Assembly (NCBI GenBank): GCA_001778875.1
Contig: MFIK01000045.1
Coordinates: forward strand, 1 to 36,636
DNA from: Candidatus Giovannonibacteria bacterium RIFCSPLOWO2_02_FULL_43_54
GTDB taxonomy: Bacteria; Patescibacteriota; Minisyncoccia; UBA11713; 2-01-FULL-45-33
Direction of reading: 5' to 3'
DNA: 36,636 bases
Part shown: piece by piece, positions 12,747 through 36,261 of the stretch
How the letters are laid out: every line of letters starts with the position of its first letter
How positions within the stretch are numbered: the stretch's first letter is position 1
Made by a program: the position numbers and the translations under genes
The notes under the pieces: generated by a model
The model's input: only the letters and a program-made list of their open reading frames with translations
Database searches by the model: none
What the model was told of the DNA's origin: nothing

Positions 12747-13283
12747 ATGCCGCTCTATTTTATAACCGGAAATAAAAATAAATTTAACGAGGTAAAATCA
12801 GTTTTACCGGATATTGAGCACTTGGATATGGATTTGCCGGAAATTCAGGATGTCGACGCGCATAAAGTTGTAAAAGCAAAGCTATTGTCCGCGTTTGAAC
12901 ATAAAAAGGGAGAATTTATTGTCGAAGATACGAGCCTGTATCTGGATTGCTTAAATGGTCTGCCTGGGCCATTGGTTAAGTGGTTTCAAAAAACTATTGG
13001 AATAGAGGGAATCGCGGATTTGGCCGAAAAATTCGGCAATGACGGAGCTCTGGCAAAAACAGTGATCGGATACGCAAAAAATCCGGAAGAGATATATTTT
13101 TTTGAAGGAGCGGTTTCCGGAACAATCGTTCCGCCGATAGGAGAGCATAAATTCGGCTGGGACCCGATATTTCAGCCTGATGGGCATACAAAAACTTTCG
13201 CGGAAATGGATGATGAAGAAAGAATGTCCCTCAAAATGCGCCGCATCGCCACGTTGAAATTGAAAGAATTTTTGGATATTTGA
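12747..13283 (+). CDS. rdgB: RdgB/HAM1-type non-canonical purine NTP pyrophosphatase
   Basis: A 178-residue member of the Ham1/ITPase family, which hydrolyses dITP, XTP and similar nucleotides to monophosphates and so keeps damaged bases out of DNA and RNA. It begins with the signature [28 protein letters not shown] matches the conserved active-site segment (VxDxSGLxVxALxGxPGv/i), with the acidic residues kept, and [11 protein letters not shown] matches the late motif. The length is slightly short for the family but complete. It lies 4 nt downstream of argS and probably shares its transcript. The start ATG is preceded by no clear SD. Confidence 0.9.
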
Positions 13284-13954: not shown

Positions 13955-14338
13955 ATGAAAGGTTTGTCTTTGGATTTTTTGATGCTGCTCATAGGCAACA
14001 TTTTTCTGTACCAGATATTTTTTTGGCTGATCGATGTTCCTGGCACAAAGAAGCTTCTTGGCTTGCAGACGGATTCATTGTGGCTTTATACTGCTTATTT
14101 TTCGTTTATTTCCATGTTTGTCGCATACCCGGCTGTTTATTTGATCCATATGGCAATTGTACGGCAGTCATTGGTAAATATTGATGTAAAAGTAATTGTG
14201 ATGTTGATATGGCTTGCTAATCCGGTTGCTCTCTTTATTTCGGAATATTTCAACCGCGGCCAGTTGAATTTATCTCTACGGGTTGTAATTGGATTTTTAC
14301 TCATGGCCGCGGCGCAAGTTGTGATGCGCTGGAAATGA
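13955..14338 (+). CDS. Hypothetical four-helix membrane protein
   Basis: A 127-residue, very hydrophobic protein. Likely helices are at about 5-26, 41-68, 76-93 and 104-123, with short loops VPGTKKLLGLQTDS and SEYFNRGQLNLS. There are no soluble domains and no recognised motif. A TGCTAGGTT box (about 13925-13933) upstream could be the promoter. No SD is visible. The overlapping frame 13906-14184 is a shadow. The stop is followed within 11 bp by an intrinsic terminator (14349-14371). With 13337-13507 and 13605-13904 it forms a run of three small membrane-protein genes. Confidence 0.6.
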   Translation: MKGLSLDFLMLLIGNIFLYQIFFWLIDVPGTKKLLGLQTDSLWLYTAYFSFISMFVAYPAVYLIHMAIVRQSLVNIDVKVIVMLIWLANPVALFISEYFNRGQLNLSLRVVIGFLLMAAAQVVMRWK

Positions 14339-14348
14339 AAATTTTAAG

Positions 14349-14371
14349 CCTACCATCGGGTAGGTTTTTTT
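14349..14371 (+). terminator. Intrinsic terminator before ileS
   Basis: CCTACC (14349-14354) and GGTAGG (14359-14364) with loop ATCG, followed by seven Ts. It ends the membrane-protein unit and excludes the upstream in-frame ATG at 14335 as the ileS start. Confidence 0.85.
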
Positions 14372-14379
14372 GTTATACT
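14371..14379 (+). promoter_or_regulatory. Extended -10 box giving a leaderless ileS mRNA
   Basis: TGTTATACT, a near-consensus extended -10 element, ends 6 nt before the ATG at 14386. Transcription would start at or within a base or two of the start codon. No SD is possible in so short a leader. Confidence 0.6.
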
Positions 14380-14385
14380 TTCATC

Positions 14386-17300
14386 ATGTTTAACGAAGAA
14401 GAAATACTCAGTTTTTGGAAGAAAAATAAAGTTTTTGAAAAATCCGTGGAGCAAAGGAAGTCCCGACGCGGAGGCCGAGATAAAACCAAAAGTTTTATTT
14501 TTTTTGAGGGGCCTCCGACCGCCAACAATGTTCCTCATATGGGACATTTTGAAACGCGCGTTTTTAAAGACATTGTTTTGCGCTTTAAAACAATGATTGG
14601 TTTTTACGCGCCCCGAAACGCCGGATGGGATACGCACGGATTGCCGGTTGAGGTTGAAGTGGAAAAAACGCTGGGTCTCCGGAATAAAAAAGAAATAGAG
14701 GCCTATGGCGTTGCCGCGTTCAATAGGATGTGCCGCGAATCTGTTTGGAAATACAAGGGTATTTGGGAGAAGATGACTGAAAGGATGGGCTTTTGGATAG
14801 ATATGGCGCATCCATATATTACTTATGAAAATTCGTATATCGAAGCGCTTTGGGGTATTGTCAAAGAATTTGCCAAAAAAGAATTGCTATATGAAGATTT
14901 CAAGGTTTTGCCGTGGTGCGCGAGATGCGGTACGGCGTTGTCTTCGCACGAACTTGCGCAAGGATATGAGAAGGTGCGCGAAAACTCCGTTTTCGTCAAA
15001 TTTCCAATTTCCAATTCTCAATTTCCAAATTCATATTTTCTTGTATGGACCACAACTCCTTGGACGCTTCCCGGCAACGTCGCTTTGGCTGTAAATCCGA
15101 AAATTGATTATGTTTTTGCAAAAAATGAAAACGAAATTTTAATATTGGCCGAGTCCCGCATTTCGGTTTTGGACGAAGGCTACGAAGTTATTAAAAAAAT
15201 AAAAGGAGCGGAACTTGTTGGTAAAAATTATGAAACACTTTATCCTGTCTCCGACATATGGCGTACGGCTTATGGCGTATTCGCGGGGGATTTTGTTTCA
15301 ACCGAAGACGGCTCGGGAATTGTGCATATTGCGCCCGCATTCGGGGACGACGACTTTCAGCTTTCTAAAAAATTTAACCTGCCGGTACTTTCTACGACGG
15401 GTCAGGACGGCCTGATGAAAACACCGGGGTATGATTGGAACGGCGGATGGTTCAAGAAAGCCGACAGGCTTATAATAGAGGACCTCAAATCAAGACATTT
15501 GCTTTTTAAAGAAGAACCATACGAGCACGACTATCCTTTTTGCTGGCGGTGTAAAAATCCGCTTATGTATCTGGCGAGAAAATCCTGGTGGGTGGACGTA
15601 AATAAAGTAAGAGGAGAACTTTTGAAAAATAATCAGACTATCCATTGGTATCCTGAACACATCAAAGACGGCAGATTCGGCGAATGGCTGAAAGAAAAAA
15701 AGAACTGGGCATTTTCCCGCGAACGCTATTGGGGGACGCCGTTGCCTGTTTGGAGATGCGGTAAATGTTCAAAATGGGAAGTCATCGGTTCGCTTAATGA
15801 GCTGCAAGAAAGAGGAATGACAAGCGGAAACAAATATTTTATCATGCGGCATGGAGAGGCGGAAACCAACGTGAAAAATATTACCAATTGTTCTTTAGAA
15901 AAAAATCTTTATCATCTTACCCAGAAAGGTAGAAAACAAGTTGAGGAAACTATAAAGATGATGCAGAAAAAAAAGATCAAGCCGGACTTGATCTTTGCGT
16001 CCCCCTTTTTAAGAACAAAAGAAACCGCTGAAATGGCGGCCGAGCAGCTAGGAGTTTCAGCCGAAAATTTTAAATTTGATCCGCGTCTCGGCGAAGTAGA
16101 TACCGGGATTTTTGCGGAAGGAGACCTCAATAAATATCATGTTTATTTTAAGAATCAGCTTGAAAAATTTATGAAACAGCCTCCGCAAGGAGAAACCTTA
16201 ACTCAATTAAAGATGCGCGTGTTTTCCGCTATCTCCGAAATAGAATCGCGCTATCAAAATAAAACTATACTTATAGTAAGCCATGAATATTCTTTATGGA
16301 TGCTTTGGACGGCGCTCGAAGGCAAGACCAATGTGGAATCGACAGAGGAGCACGTGAAGAGAAAATGGGAGTTTTTAAAAACGGCGGAATTTGAAAAAGC
16401 GGAATGTTTGAATATTCCGCGCGGCGAAGACCTGGTTTTGGACATGCATAAGCCCTACATTGACGCCGTTAAATTGAAATGCGCGTGCGGAGGCGAAATG
16501 AAAAGAGTTCCCGAGGTTTGCGATGTTTGGTTCGACTCCGGTTCAATGCCGTTTGCAAGCAATCCGCCCGGTTTTCCGGCAGACTATATTGTTGAAGCAA
16601 TCGACCAGACAAGAGGATGGTTCTACACGCTTCTCGCGGTTTCAACTCTTCTTGGAAAAGGCGCGCCGTACAAAAACGTAATATCGCTTGGACACGTGCT
16701 GGACGCAAAAGGCAAAAAAATGTCAAAGTCACTTGGTAATGTTGTGGACCCAATGAAACTTATTGAAAAATACGGCGCCGACGCAGTGCGCTGGTATTTC
16801 TTTACGGTAAACCAGCCATGGGATTCAAAATTGTTCAATGAGGCCGACGTAAAAGATGCCTCGCGCAGATTTTTCGTGATACTTTGGAATATTTTACAAT
16901 TCCACAAGCTTTATGCCGTAAGCCGTAAGCCGTATGGCATAAAGCCTAAGGCGAAACTTCTGATCAATCGTTGGATTTTATTGCAGCTCAACGAAGCGGT
17001 TGGCGCAGTTACGCGCAAACTTGATATCTATGACATTATTGGCGCCGCCCGCGATCTCGAAAATTTCGTTGTTGAAGATGTTTCAAGGTGGTATGTGCGC
17101 AGAATCCGCGATGTAATGAAAGAGGACTCAAAGGAGACGAAAGAGACAAGCGTCGTTTTGGAATATTTGCTCGGTGAAATTTCAAAACTTTTGGCGCCAT
17201 TTGCTCCATTCATGGCGGAGAAGATTTGGCTGGAGCTTTGGAATAAGGGAAGTGTTCATTTGGAGGATTGGCCCAAGCTTCGTGGGAAAACACTCGGTGT

Positions 17301-17817
17301 TAAATCCCCAAAAACACCGAGTGTTGAGGGGCGAAGCTTGCTAGGAAATATGACCGAAGTTCGCCGCATTGTCGGCTTGGCGTTGGAAGCCAGACAGAAA
17401 GCTGGTGTAAAAGTAAGGCAGCCGCTCTCTTTGCTGAAAATCCGAAATCCGAAATCCAACCCGCCTGCCGGACGGGCAGGAATCCGAAATAATATGGAAT
17501 TGATAAATTTAATTAAAGAAGAAATCAACGTCAAAAACATAGAATTTGATCTGAAGCTTGAGGACGAAGTCCGGTTGGATACCGTAATTACTCCGGAGCT
17601 TCATGAAGAGGGAATCGTCCGTGACCTTATCCGCGAAATTCAGGCGGCAAGGAAAACCGCAGGCTTAAAACCGAAAGACAAAGTTTCGGCAATGCTTGAA
17701 TTGCCGAAAGAAATATTTGAAACTGCCAAGAAATATGAAAAAGTTCTGGCCAAGGAAACGAATCTGGAGTCCGTCAAAATCTCGGAAGCTGGCGCCGTAA
17801 AAATATCGCTAAAATAA
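14386..17817 (+). CDS. ileS: Isoleucyl-tRNA synthetase with inserted histidine-phosphatase domain
   Basis: A class Ia synthetase charging tRNA-Ile. It has 1143 aa, more than the ~900-1050 usual. HMGH is at 51-54, the editing domain has WTTTPWTLPGN and GTG-like GSGIVHIAPAFGDDD motifs, KMSKS is at 778-782, and the anticodon-binding domain follows. After the catalytic RYWGTPLPVWRCGKC segment a complete histidine-phosphatase (phosphoglycerate-mutase-like) domain is inserted at about 478-660. It has R488-H489-G490-E, R543 in SPFLRT, E570 and the second catalytic His in V631-S-H633-E. The synthetase chain resumes at DLVLDMHKPYID with KCACGGEMKRVPEVCDVWFDSG. All phosphatase active-site residues are kept, so it is probably functional. 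Several in-frame repeats add further insertions (15001-15032, 15257-15284, 16908-16945, 17274-17340, 17438-17490). The 14386 ATG is chosen because of the terminator and -10 box just upstream. Confidence 0.95.
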   Translation: MFNEEEILSFWKKNKVFEKSVEQRKSRRGGRDKTKSFIFFEGPPTANNVPHMGHFETRVFKDIVLRFKTMIGFYAPRNAGWDTHGLPVEVEVEKTLGLRNKKEIEAYGVAAFNRMCRESVWKYKGIWEKMTERMGFWIDMAHPYITYENSYIEALWGIVKEFAKKELLYEDFKVLPWCARCGTALSSHELAQGYEKVRENSVFVKFPISNSQFPNSYFLVWTTTPWTLPGNVALAVNPKIDYVFAKNENEILILAESRISVLDEGYEVIKKIKGAELVGKNYETLYPVSDIWRTAYGVFAGDFVSTEDGSGIVHIAPAFGDDDFQLSKKFNLPVLSTTGQDGLMKTPGYDWNGGWFKKADRLIIEDLKSRHLLFKEEPYEHDYPFCWRCKNPLMYLARKSWWVDVNKVRGELLKNNQTIHWYPEHIKDGRFGEWLKEKKNWAFSRERYWGTPLPVWRCGKCSKWEVIGSLNELQERGMTSGNKYFIMRHGEAETNVKNITNCSLEKNLYHLTQKGRKQVEETIKMMQKKKIKPDLIFASPFLRTKETAEMAAEQLGVSAENFKFDPRLGEVDTGIFAEGDLNKYHVYFKNQLEKFMKQPPQGETLTQLKMRVFSAISEIESRYQNKTILIVSHEYSLWMLWTALEGKTNVESTEEHVKRKWEFLKTAEFEKAECLNIPRGEDLVLDMHKPYIDAVKLKCACGGEMKRVPEVCDVWFDSGSMPFASNPPGFPADYIVEAIDQTRGWFYTLLAVSTLLGKGAPYKNVISLGHVLDAKGKKMSKSLGNVVDPMKLIEKYGADAVRWYFFTVNQPWDSKLFNEADVKDASRRFFVILWNILQFHKLYAVSRKPYGIKPKAKLLINRWILLQLNEAVGAVTRKLDIYDIIGAARDLENFVVEDVSRWYVRRIRDVMKEDSKETKETSVVLEYLLGEISKLLAPFAPFMAEKIWLELWNKGSVHLEDWPKLRGKTLGVKSPKTPSVEGRSLLGNMTEVRRIVGLALEARQKAGVKVRQPLSLLKIRNPKSNPPAGRAGIRNNMELINLIKEEINVKNIEFDLKLEDEVRLDTVITPELHEEGIVRDLIREIQAARKTAGLKPKDKVSAMLELPKEIFETAKKYEKVLAKETNLESVKISEAGAVKISLK
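15001..15028. repeat. Heptamer repeat TTTCCAA x4 in ileS
   Basis: Four tandem 7-nt units (the third reads TTCTCAA), encoding about FPISNSQFPNS in the editing domain just before the conserved WTTTPWT motif. Confidence 0.85.
15257..15284. repeat. Heptamer repeat in ileS, reverse of the GCCRTAA type
   Basis: TATGGCG-TACGGCT-TATGGCG-TATTCGC. Reversed, the units read CGCCATA and AGCCGTA, matching the GCCGTAA and GCCATAA heptamers at 16915 and 35896. It encodes WRTAYGVF before the conserved FVSTEDGSGIVHIAP segment. Confidence 0.6.
16908..16945. repeat. Palindrome enclosing heptamer repeat GCCGTAA x3 in ileS
   Basis: GCTTTATGCC (16908-16917) pairs with GGCATAAAGC (16936-16945). The loop consists of tandem GCCGTAA units (16915-16935). 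It is read in frame as KLYAVSRKPYGIKPKA. Confidence 0.9.
17274..17340. repeat. Nested 67-bp palindrome in ileS
   Basis: Outer arms CAAGCTTCG (17274-17282) and CGAAGCTTG (17332-17340) enclose inner 13-bp arms AACACTCGGTGTT (17289-17301) and AACACCGAGTGTT (17313-17325). It is read in frame as about KLRGKTLGVKSPKTPSVEGR in the anticodon-binding region, between LEDWP and the TEVRRIVGLALEAR helix. Confidence 0.95.
17438..17490. repeat. Heptamer AAATCCG x3 plus CCTGCC/GGCAGG palindrome in ileS
   Basis: Tandem AAATCCG units (17438-17458), then CCTGCC (17464-17469) pairing with GGCAGG (17475-17480), then another AATCCGAAAT. It encodes KIRNPKSNPPAGRAGIRN in frame. The palindrome is of the same GC-rich type as the intergenic one at 9009-9022. 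Confidence 0.9.
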
Positions 17818-32715: not shown

Positions 32716-35700
32716 ATGATTCCATATGATCATAAAAAGATAGAAAAGAAGTGGCAGAGGTTTTGGGAGCAAAAAAAACTCTACAAAACTTCCGACAGCG
32801 CGGAAGAAAAGGATAATTTTTACGCTTTGGTTGAGTTCCCGTACCCTTCGGGTAATTTGCATACCGGGCATTGGTATGCTTTTTCTGTACCGGACATTTT
32901 TGTGCGAAAAAAAAGAATGGAAGGAAAAAATATTTTATTTCCCATCGGGTTTGACGCTTTTGGATTGCCGGCGGAGAATGCCGCGATAAAACGCGGGTTC
33001 GACCCGAAAAAATGGACATATGAAAATATTGATTATATGCGACGCCAACTTCGGTCCATGGGCGCGTCTTTTGACTGGAGCCGTGAAGTTATTACCGCGG
33101 ATCAGGAATATTATAAATGGACGCAGTGGATATTTTTGCAGTTTTTTAAAAAAGGATTGGCGTACCGGGCGGAAACCGCGGTCAACTGGTGCCCGAAAGA
33201 CAAAACCGTGCTCGCGAATGAACAGGTTGCAGCAGGTAAATGCGAAAGATGCGGAGCGGAGGTTGAGCAGAGGCAAATGAGACAGTGGATGCTCCGAATC
33301 ACGGATTACGCCGAGAGATTGCTTTCAGGTTTGGATAAACTGAACTGGAAAGACGAAATTAAGCAGGCGCAAAGGAATTGGATAGGAAAAAGCGAGGGCG
33401 CAGAGATTGAGTTTGAAATTAAAAATGGCATAGCATCGTCTTACGTGTTGCTTCATGGATATACCGGTTCTCCAAATGATAACTTTTTTCCGTGGCTTAA
33501 AAAGACACTGGAAAATCGGGGCGCAAAAGTTTATGCGCCAAAATTACCGAATACAGATGACCCGCGCGTCTATGATCAAGCGGCAGAAGTTTTGAAATCT
33601 GTGCCGTTTAATAAAGATACTGTTATTGTCGGCCATAGTTTAGGGAGCGTTGTTGCGTTAAAAATAATTGAACAGCTAAAAGTGCCTGTTAGGAAAACAA
33701 TAATAGTAGCCGGTTTCACTGAAAATAAATTTATAGACGAGCCGTTTGAAGTGCACACATTTGACTGGAAATTTAATGTGAAAAAAATCAGACAAAATGC
33801 CGGCAAAGTCTGTATTTTGAGAGACACAATTGATGATGTGGTGCCGCAATTTCAGGCTGAAAACATAAAAAAATTAATTGGGGGTAAAATATTTGATTTC
33901 ACCGCTTCAGAGCCGCATGCTTCCGGAAAAATAGAGCCAGAAATTTTAAGACACTGTATTGATTCTGTCCGTGTTTTCACTACGCGACCCGATACGCTAT
34001 TCGGGGCAACATATGTGGTTTTGGCTCCGGAGCATGAGCTTGTACAGAGTCTAGACTCTAGAATCGAGAATTTAGAAGAGGTAAAAAAATATATCGGAGA
34101 AGCCAAAAGGAAAACTCCGTTACAACGACAACAAGAAACCAAAGAAAAAACGGGAGTTGAGTTAAAAGGTGTTAAGGCGATAAATCCCACAAGCAAAGAA
34201 GAGATTCCGGTCTGGATTGCGGATTATGTTTTGTCGGGCTACGGGACCGGCGCAATAATGGCAGTTCCCGCGCACGACGAACGCGATTTTGAATTTGCTT
34301 CGAAATTTGGTCTGCCGATAAAACATGTGGTTATTCCTTCGGTGGTTGATCACGTAAATCCTCCCCGGCCCGATAAATCCTCAAAGACAAGAATTAATGT
34401 GCACGCATTGGTCTATGATCCGGTAAATAAAAAATATTTGATAATTAGAAACAAAAAATTCGGCTGGGACACAGTTGTCATCGGTGGGGTGGAAGAAGGC
34501 GAAAAAGCGATCAGCGCGGCACTCCGCGAGCTAATGGAAGAAACCGGCTATGTTGACCTGGAATTTAAACGGATTTTGGGAGGGCCGGCGAAAGCGGTGT
34601 ATTTTGCGAAGCATAAAGATGAAAATAGGATAGCAATTACAACCGCGGTATATTTTGAATTAAAAAGCGATAAGCGCGTCGCAATAGCTGAAGATGGAGA
34701 GAACGAAGGAAATGAAATATTGTGGATAGACGCCAAGGATTTTGTCCCAGGAAAAATGGTCAATTCCGAATTGCCTTATTGGTTGGAAAGATTAAAGGCC
34801 GGGACGAATATGGCGTATGCGGGTAATGGGGCGTTAATTAATTCCGGAAAATTCGAAGGAATGGATTCCGAAGATGCTAAGAAAAAAATAACAGAATTTG
34901 TCGGAGGGGAAATTAAAACTCAATATAAGCTTCGCGACTGGGTGGTTTCGCGCCAGCGCTATTGGGGCGTGCCGATACCGATAATTTATTGTGAAAAATG
35001 CGGAGTATCTGCCGTGTCTGAAAAAGATCTGCCGGTTAAATTACCTGATATAAAAGATTATTTGCCGACAGGAGAAGGCAAGTCGCCATTGGCCAAGGCA
35101 ACTAAGTGGCTAAGCGTTAAGTGTCCGGTATGTGGAGGAAATGCTGAAAGAGAAACAGACACTTTGGACACGTTTGTGGATTCTTCATGGTATTTCCTCC
35201 GATATTGCGATCCGAAAAATAAAAAAAGTTTTGCCGATGCAGAAAAAATGTCGGCATGGATGCCGGTTGACCTTTATTCGGGGGGGGCGGAGCACACAAC
35301 CATACACCTTTTGTATTCGCGTTTTTGGTACAAAGCAATGTATGATTTGGGCTTACTTGGCGGCGAAGCCGCCAAGTTGGGAGACCCGTCTCGCCTAGGC
35401 GAAGCCGAGGCGGATGAGCCGTATAGTGAGAGAAGAAATCGAGGGATAATTTTGGGGCCGGATGGGCAGAAAATGTCCAAATCCAAGGGTAATGTCATAG
35501 ACCCGGATGAATATGTTGCAAAGTTCGGAAGCGACACCGTACGTATGTATTTAGCGTTTATCGGCCCATACAGCGAGGCTGGCTCATACCCATGGGACCC
35601 GCACGGCATTTTGGGAATACGCCGATTTTTGGACAGGGTGTGGGCGATGGCGAGCACAAAAAATTTGCTGAAGGCAGAGGTTTTTCAAGACTTTTCGCAG

Positions 35701-36261
35701 CGTGACGGCGCGAGACTTAGCAATTCGCCAGCAGGCGAATATGCGGGTCTTGAAAAATCTGCTGCTGAGGCAAGTATTGTACGAACCATAAACAAAACAA
35801 TCAAACAAGTTTCGGAAAATATTGAGGATTTTAAATTTAATACTGCGATATCGGCGATGATGATTTTATTGAATGAAGTGGAGAAACAGTCTGATGCCAT
35901 AAGCCATAAGCAATATGTCGAGTTTCTCAAAATCCTTGCTCCGTTTGCACCGCATTTAACCGAAGAAATTTGGCAAAAAATGAACAAGTCCGCCAAAGGC
36001 GGACCAGCCAAGGGCTGGAAATCAATCCATTTGGAAAAATGGCCGGAATATGATCCGAAGATGCTGGAAGAGGAAAATTATGATCTTGTTGTCCAGATAA
36101 ACGGCAAAACGCGCGACAAATTCAGCGTGTCGGTAAATATTTCGCAAAGCGAAGCCGAGCACTTGACTTTAGCGCGTGAAAAAGTTAAACTTGCGCTAGA
36201 CAATAAACAACTGCGAAAAATTATTTTTGTGCCGAAACGGCTCATCAATATCGTGGTTTAG
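32716..36261 (+). CDS. leuS: Leucyl-tRNA synthetase with inserted alpha/beta-hydrolase and Nudix domains
   Basis: Charges tRNA-Leu. It has 1181 aa, against ~800-870 typical of bacterial LeuRS. HTGH is at 49-52, KMSKS at 919-923, and editing-domain landmarks are TRPDTLFG (423-430) and GTGAIMAVPAHDERD (to 524). Between WIGKSEGAEIEFEI and VRVFTTRPDT, about 237-415, is a complete RBBP9/YdeN-like serine hydrolase: HGYTGS (from H247), nucleophile S308 in GHSLGS, Asp in RDTIDD and His in SEPHAS. Between LPIKHVVIP and ALINSGKFEG, about 542-700, is a complete Nudix domain. Its box runs from G590 to Y612 (GGVEEGE, then RELMEETGY). All catalytic residues of both are kept. Palindromes add small insertions at 35355-35412 and 35988-36004. 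The function of the fused enzymes is unknown; clean-up of misacylation or adenylate by-products is inference. No SD before the start. Confidence 0.95.
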   Translation: MIPYDHKKIEKKWQRFWEQKKLYKTSDSAEEKDNFYALVEFPYPSGNLHTGHWYAFSVPDIFVRKKRMEGKNILFPIGFDAFGLPAENAAIKRGFDPKKWTYENIDYMRRQLRSMGASFDWSREVITADQEYYKWTQWIFLQFFKKGLAYRAETAVNWCPKDKTVLANEQVAAGKCERCGAEVEQRQMRQWMLRITDYAERLLSGLDKLNWKDEIKQAQRNWIGKSEGAEIEFEIKNGIASSYVLLHGYTGSPNDNFFPWLKKTLENRGAKVYAPKLPNTDDPRVYDQAAEVLKSVPFNKDTVIVGHSLGSVVALKIIEQLKVPVRKTIIVAGFTENKFIDEPFEVHTFDWKFNVKKIRQNAGKVCILRDTIDDVVPQFQAENIKKLIGGKIFDFTASEPHASGKIEPEILRHCIDSVRVFTTRPDTLFGATYVVLAPEHELVQSLDSRIENLEEVKKYIGEAKRKTPLQRQQETKEKTGVELKGVKAINPTSKEEIPVWIADYVLSGYGTGAIMAVPAHDERDFEFASKFGLPIKHVVIPSVVDHVNPPRPDKSSKTRINVHALVYDPVNKKYLIIRNKKFGWDTVVIGGVEEGEKAISAALRELMEETGYVDLEFKRILGGPAKAVYFAKHKDENRIAITTAVYFELKSDKRVAIAEDGENEGNEILWIDAKDFVPGKMVNSELPYWLERLKAGTNMAYAGNGALINSGKFEGMDSEDAKKKITEFVGGEIKTQYKLRDWVVSRQRYWGVPIPIIYCEKCGVSAVSEKDLPVKLPDIKDYLPTGEGKSPLAKATKWLSVKCPVCGGNAERETDTLDTFVDSSWYFLRYCDPKNKKSFADAEKMSAWMPVDLYSGGAEHTTIHLLYSRFWYKAMYDLGLLGGEAAKLGDPSRLGEAEADEPYSERRNRGIILGPDGQKMSKSKGNVIDPDEYVAKFGSDTVRMYLAFIGPYSEAGSYPWDPHGILGIRRFLDRVWAMASTKNLLKAEVFQDFSQRDGARLSNSPAGEYAGLEKSAAEASIVRTINKTIKQVSENIEDFKFNTAISAMMILLNEVEKQSDAISHKQYVEFLKILAPFAPHLTEEIWQKMNKSAKGGPAKGWKSIHLEKWPEYDPKMLEEENYDLVVQINGKTRDKFSVSVNISQSEAEHLTLAREKVKLALDNKQLRKIIFVPKRLINIVV
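34046..34059. repeat. 14-bp palindrome in leuS
   Basis: AGAGTCTAGACTCT, read as QSLDSR just after the editing-domain APEHEL segment, a point of variable length in LeuRS. Confidence 0.6.
35355..35377. repeat. In-frame palindrome in leuS, family A
   Basis: ACTTGGCGGC-GAA-GCCGCCAAGT: a perfect 10-bp stem, read as LGGEAAKL. It has the same outer arms and the same reading phase as the two argS palindromes (LGSSASK, LGNPVSK). Confidence 0.95.
35392..35412. repeat. Second in-frame palindrome in leuS
   Basis: CGCCTAGGC-GAA-GCCGAGGCG (one mismatch), 14 bp after the family A copy and with the same GAA loop, read as RLGEAEA. Together the two add about 18 residues before the EPYSERRNRG segment leading to KMSKS. 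Confidence 0.85.
35896..35916. repeat. Heptamer repeat GCCATAA in leuS
   Basis: GCCATAA-GCCATAA-GCAATAT, in frame as AISHKQY in the anticodon-binding domain. The unit is one base different from GCCGTAA at 16915 in ileS. Confidence 0.7.
35988..36004. repeat. In-frame palindrome in leuS, family B
   Basis: GTCCGCC-AAA-GGCGGAC, read as SAKGGP. The core TCCGCC-nnn-GGCGGA is shared with metG 29736-29750. Confidence 0.9.

Follow-up and report, generated by a model that had tools for sequence, protein, structure and literature searches.

The leucyl-tRNA synthetase (LeuRS) encoded in the window, the 36,636-nucleotide stretch of Candidatus Giovannonibacteria bacterium RIFCSPLOWO2_02_FULL_43_54 analysed here, carries a Nudix hydrolase domain with intact catalytic residues inside its CP1 editing domain, and the subfamily to which this domain belongs lives almost always in LeuRS and almost never free-standing. 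The gene, leuS (32716-36261, + strand), was assigned from its open reading frame, Pfam and NCBIfam searches, an alignment with the T. thermophilus enzyme and an AF2 model, and encodes a bacterial-type LeuRS of 1181 amino acids with two inserted enzyme domains. The equivalog model leuS_bact (TIGR00396) matched it with 969 bits against a cut-off of 548 (E=1.5e-291), the HIGH-like (HTGH) and KMSKS motifs are present, and so is the CP1 editing domain (PF13603, E 6e-60), whose match is split by the Nudix insert. The full chain was modelled as a LeuRS (pLDDT 86.2, pTM 0.77; 87-96 pLDDT in the Nudix blocks), and the best PDB match of this model was the T. thermophilus LeuRS 2bte (E 9e-79). All core domains, the signature motifs and CP1 are common to the window LeuRS and bacterial LeuRS (TIGR00396; T. 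thermophilus 1h3n/2bte). Compared with the T. thermophilus enzyme (878 amino acids), with which the core aligned in four blocks (1h3n), the window LeuRS is ~300 amino acids longer and has one extra enzyme domain before CP1 and another inside it.

The first of these domains occupies site 1 (33430-33957, + strand), between the catalytic core and CP1, and was identified by Pfam and profile comparison as Ser_hydrolase (PF06821, RBBP9/YdeN type). This insert covers about residues 243-416 (PF06821 at residues 243-350, E=2.4e-8), and in the 1h3n alignment its site maps between T. thermophilus residues 237 and 243. The domain has a GHSLG nucleophile motif; other families have members of this serine hydrolase family at LeuRS site 1, 2 or 3, and an IleRS has one as well. 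It is followed by the N-terminal part of CP1 (33961-34350, + strand; best PF13603 stretch at residues 416-543, aligned with T. thermophilus residues 243-362), which is cut by the second insert.

This second insert, the Nudix domain, lies at site 2 (34351-34803, + strand; Pfam core 34387-34764) and was recognized by Pfam, AF2 and Foldseek. The initial annotation had described a complete Nudix hydrolase with a catalytic box as one of two enzyme insertions in this synthetase, and the Pfam search agreed: NUDIX (PF00293) matched residues 558-683 with E=4.3e-12 and 46.6 bits, more than twice the gathering cut-off of 21.1. Its placement at a second site of the same LeuRS also held, but the extent had to be refined: in the 1h3n alignment, query residues 418-539 correspond to T. 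thermophilus residues 243-362 and query residue 698 onward to residue 374 onward, which puts the insert between T. thermophilus residues 362 and 374, its boundaries against LeuRS at about residues 546-696, and the site inside the CP1 editing domain. That two insertions in one synthetase are remarkable, as the initial annotation held, is true yet understated, since up to five were found in one LeuRS.

The Nudix box GGVEEGEKAISAALRELMEETGY (34483-34551, + strand; residues 590-612, as in the initial annotation) has the form G-x5-E-x7-REL-x-EE-x-GY, in agreement with the superfamily pattern G-x5-E-x7-REU-x-EE-x-GU, and its residues are conserved in the alignments. The alignments also revealed the subfamily motif HKDENR (34612-34629, + strand; residues 633-638) and, downstream of the box, Glu662 (34699-34701, + strand), which is invariant in an 18-row alignment but outside the invariant and the 90% columns of a 30-row alignment. 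By analogy to E98 of MutT, Glu662 is a candidate catalytic glutamate. In the AF2 model of the domain alone (pLDDT 91.7, pTM 0.85), the alpha/beta Nudix fold was predicted. Foldseek searches with this model returned 2azw, a MutT/nudix protein, at the top (E 1.2e-8), followed by MutT1, RppH, MutT, NudI and an Ap4A hydrolase (3i7u), whereas the nearest protein in a profile search was the dihydroneopterin triphosphate diphosphatase 2o1c; a CTP pyrophosphohydrolase was also among the neighbours. Box, fold and metal-binding glutamates are those of the Nudix superfamily (PF00293). The insert differs from known Nudix enzymes in being embedded in a synthetase and in a signature of its own, consisting of a Trp in the strand that precedes the box, the Lys of HKDxNR and the late Glu.

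Searches with NCBIfam subfamily models and PDB profiles gave no match above cut-off that would place the embedded Nudix in a known subfamily, so that its sequence points to no particular substrate. The RNA pyrophosphohydrolase models of NCBIfam gave at most 22 bits with the window Nudix (cut-offs: at least 116), and there was no Ap4A model among the matches. For MutT (8-oxo-dGTP diphosphatase), only a few of 10 members matched weakly (best E 4e-4), and the window copy gave no match. We also considered an intein and an assembly artefact. The insert has no N-terminal Cys/Ser, no C-terminal His-Asn and no splicing domain, and Pfam found only NUDIX in it; the frames are intact in dozens of independent genomes. 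On these grounds, both explanations were rejected.

The box was expected between the HDERDF and INSGxFxG motifs of Patescibacteria LeuRS, where we found it many times, and it is not broken in the relatives: 60 of the 76 distinct embedded copies have a strictly canonical box, and the three catalytic glutamates of REUxEE are conserved to 100, 97 and 99%. The Lys of HKDxNR is present in 96% of the embedded copies vs 8% of 13 free Nudix proteins, and the Trp before the box in 80% vs 0% of 18. The box is modified in three Pfam-supported copies (L053, L057 and L075) and a few more; a variant GQT...AEI box was found in L053, L057, L169 and the first L161 copy, and a box shorter by one residue in L177, L178 and L181. 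Compared with its counterpart in the same-genus genome G001, the window Nudix has 94% amino acid identity and a dN/dS of 0.062, vs 80-85% identity and dN/dS of 0.08-0.20 for the neighbouring parts of LeuRS, showing that the domain is under purifying selection. Synonymous divergence was lower in the Nudix island than in its flanks (38.5/100.5 vs 280.6/522 sites, Fisher p 0.0045 in a post hoc test), which is no more than a hint of recombination of the island.

For a survey of the phylum, we compared a profile of 30 Nudix copies with 380 Patescibacteria genomes. This profile was built from embedded copies and so favours them; the informative part of the result is the near-absence of free members. 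There were 48 matches above 90 bits, of which 46 were in frames of at least 640 amino acids; with two of them in G424, this corresponds to 45 genomes (~12%). The long frames fetched were LeuRS, except for one ValRS. Free Nudix proteins of 140-180 amino acids appeared only below ~74 bits; the exceptions were a 187-aa protein (G410) and a broken short frame (G208). The same Nudix is carried by a ValRS of 883 amino acids in G296, and a weaker match in G411 was an IleRS of 1544 amino acids with Nudix, serine hydrolase and histidine phosphatase. The LeuRS of G424 has Nudix at both sites, and the combination seen in the window LeuRS, serine hydrolase at site 1 and Nudix at site 2, recurs in L075 (G048) and L190 (G170). 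In family f1, to which the window genome belongs, G001 has the same Nudix at site 2, G004 and G005 have another Nudix type there and G006 a third, and the site is empty in G003 and G009.

A scan of named genomes extended the range of the embedded Nudix to Parcubacteria, Magasanikbacteria, Taylorbacteria and Saccharibacteria, as well as to a few LeuRSs of Firmicutes gut MAGs (Clostridia, Bacillales, Erysipelotrichaceae). Three relatives were freestanding: L081 (Saccharibacteria), L083 and L084. The last of them (L084:3671-4525, 285 amino acids, Candidatus Pelethosoma) consists of a fragment of the LeuRS editing domain joined to this Nudix and has no synthetase domains. In Gracilibacteria, a LeuRS-like frame that contains a Nudix of the embedded type (L088:4001-4348) is broken by stop codons when read with table 11, which would be expected with a reassigned TGA.

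On a tree of the LeuRS core with 74 rows, the Nudix label has to change at least 17 times, a number that is not a rate because the sample was enriched for long LeuRSs. In the Nudix tree, the copy of G004 (family f1) is sister to that of G046 (family f8) with support of 100/95, although the LeuRS cores belong to different families; therefore, either the island or the gene has moved. On the question of whether the embedded copies are a single clade, this tree gave a split of 53/66 and the AU test no rejection (p 0.48), and the deep branches were poorly supported. Since the resolution of this tree is too weak, the exclusivity of LeuRS residence rests on the 380-genome survey.

Nudix is not the only enzyme that is found in these loops. 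We fetched the long LeuRS frames from a class set of 142 genomes and compared them with a profile of insert-free LeuRS. Inserts of 120-200 amino acids recur in this class at site 1 (profile position ~246) and site 2 (~377), and in LeuRS of family f40 also near positions 457 and 660-690, so that at least four insertion sites are recurrently occupied. According to Pfam, the occupants are Nudix, serine hydrolase, Ham1, HAD, ASCH, an aminoglycoside-type nucleotidyltransferase and two unknown domains. One family can sit at different sites: L080, L161, L043 and L055 have Nudix at site 1, L040 has serine hydrolase at site 2, and HAD occupies site 1 of L060 and site 2 of L082. Aminoglyc_resit-type nucleotidyltransferase inserts are carried by L056 and L201. 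The longest series, five inserts in the 1795-aa LeuRS of G148 (L201:977-6361), comprises HAD, Ham1-like, Nudix, Ham1-like and nucleotidyltransferase domains. G002, which belongs to the same genus as the window genome, has a Ham1-like domain at LeuRS site 1. An insert of ~155 amino acids with no Pfam match is common to three f31 genomes at site 2, the Nudix site (L016, 1906-2370; L058; L059).

The window also encodes an IleRS of 1160 amino acids (14335-17817, + strand) with a histidine-phosphatase insert at ~15838-16329 (PF00300, residues 502-665, E 2.8e-26), and, judging by split matches and the lengths of the frames, most of the 142 genomes of the class may have a similar IleRS insert of ~170 amino acids. 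Upstream of this IleRS lies a free-standing Ham1/ITPase gene (12747-13283, + strand; match at 12753-13271).

We propose that the Nudix domain acts as a tethered house-cleaning enzyme in an exposed loop of CP1, with class Ia synthetases as carriers of repeatedly inserted hydrolases, a reading for which we see about as much reason to believe as to doubt. The insert would be a catalytically competent Nudix of a synthetase-resident subfamily, and its substrates would probably belong to the nucleoside-diphosphate-X class, such as nucleotides that are damaged or non-canonical, dinucleoside polyphosphates or similar compounds. The LeuRS of Patescibacteria and its class Ia sisters ValRS and IleRS would serve as abundant and essential carriers; Nudix, serine hydrolase, Ham1, HAD and histidine phosphatase have entered a few of their permissive loops time and again. 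The intact and conserved box, the purifying selection, the predicted fold and the near-exclusive residence in LeuRS speak for this proposal. The companion inserts argue for it too, as they are hydrolases of the house-cleaning type, and so does the fate of Ham1: G002 and each of the five f40 genomes have no Ham1 match other than one inside LeuRS, so that any cell-wide role of Ham1 falls to the inserted enzyme in these six genomes. Several observations point in the other direction. The window genome encodes four other Nudix proteins, which would make a general role partly redundant; the Nudix lineage remains in LeuRS and exchanges little with free Nudix proteins, which may indicate a task specific to LeuRS; and some copies have the modified boxes described above. 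Since its distribution is patchy (~12%), the embedded Nudix is not essential.

A LeuRS-specific task could be the clean-up in cis that the initial annotation suggested: LeuRS would make Ap4A and related dinucleotides from leucyl-adenylate, and the Nudix would degrade them beside their site of formation. According to two reviews (PMC10148737, PMC7705103), Ap4A is a product of synthetases and Nudix enzymes are among its hydrolases. A synthetase-linked task is plausible for a subfamily that occurs almost only in LeuRS and in at least one ValRS and one IleRS, and the Ap4A hydrolase among the Foldseek neighbours fits with it. However, MutT, RppH, NudI and CTP pyrophosphohydrolase are equally neighbours and no subfamily was assigned, an Ap4A task would not explain the Ham1, HAD, serine hydrolase and nucleotidyltransferase inserts at the same sites, and a HIT-family protein, another type of enzyme that may degrade Ap4A, is encoded elsewhere in the window genome. 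Moreover, the strongest Ap4A makers are synthetases other than LeuRS, in which no insert of this kind was noticed. We regard clean-up in cis as unlikely and prefer tethered house-cleaning, because the sole Ham1 of six genomes sits inside LeuRS.

The inserts could also be passengers with little or no role, compact domains with nearby termini that land by chance in permissive CP1 loops and are kept because they are harmless. Such chance landing would be consistent with unrelated domains sharing sites, with the same families hopping between sites, and with site 2 in family f1 alone being either empty or occupied by one of three Nudix types. It is at odds with the strong catalytic conservation and the dN/dS of 0.06, with the restricted set of enzyme families among the occupants, and with a Nudix subfamily that resides in synthetases across phyla and is not resampled each time from free Nudix proteins, all of which makes a passenger quite improbable. 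Alternatively, the inserted hydrolases or transferases may protect the synthetases themselves by destroying nucleotide-type inhibitors (agrocin-84/TM84-like compounds and other aminoacyl-AMP mimics). LeuRS, IleRS and ValRS all carry inserts, relatives of drug-modifying enzymes are among them (the Aminoglyc_resit-type nucleotidyltransferases of L056 and L201, with the NCBIfam exception 'ileS_w_GNAT'), and the patchy, fast-changing occupancy resembles that of resistance traits; but the nucleotidyltransferase match is to a broad family, and Nudix, Ham1 and HAD serve mainly to sanitise nucleotides, so that such protection appears decidedly improbable. A regulatory sensor that binds a nucleotide signal and tunes editing or aminoacylation by moving CP1 would suit the location inside the mobile editing domain, the modified boxes (L053, L057, L075, L169), which could bind without cleaving, and the freestanding protein of CP1 remnant and Nudix (L084), but the full catalytic set is kept in most copies, and this explanation is highly improbable.

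In a wider reading, the class Ia synthetases of Patescibacteria would be modular carriers, and a mobile set of nucleotide-sanitising and detoxifying enzymes would move from one fixed loop to another in LeuRS, ValRS and IleRS and, in some genomes, take the place of the free-standing enzyme altogether. We consider this possible, with doubt slightly prevailing. The Nudix-bearing LeuRS is a variation on class Ia synthetases with inserted modules: the CP1 editing domain and the module of the NCBIfam entry ileS_w_GNAT are likewise functional domains inserted in a class Ia synthetase, whereas in the window LeuRS the CP1 editing domain is itself the host. A survey from 2026 on inserted domains (PMC13114784) reported the LeuRS editing-domain family in 213 insertion events and never as a host, and the present finding contradicts the view of this domain as only ever an inserted module. 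No paper that joined LeuRS with Nudix inserts, or relevantly with Patescibacteria, was found in the freely accessible literature searched; the architecture may already appear in domain databases.

To summarize, an essential, slow-evolving enzyme of a very large bacterial group has repeatedly acquired other catalytic domains within its proofreading domain, with as many as five in a single chain. These synthetases are natural examples of functional enzyme insertion, useful for protein engineering, and they raise a clear biochemical question: what the Nudix cuts, and whether LeuRS feeds it. They also provide a lead on how accessory functions are packaged in reduced genomes: if the modular-carrier reading is true, the synthetase would be a multi-enzyme platform for house-cleaning.
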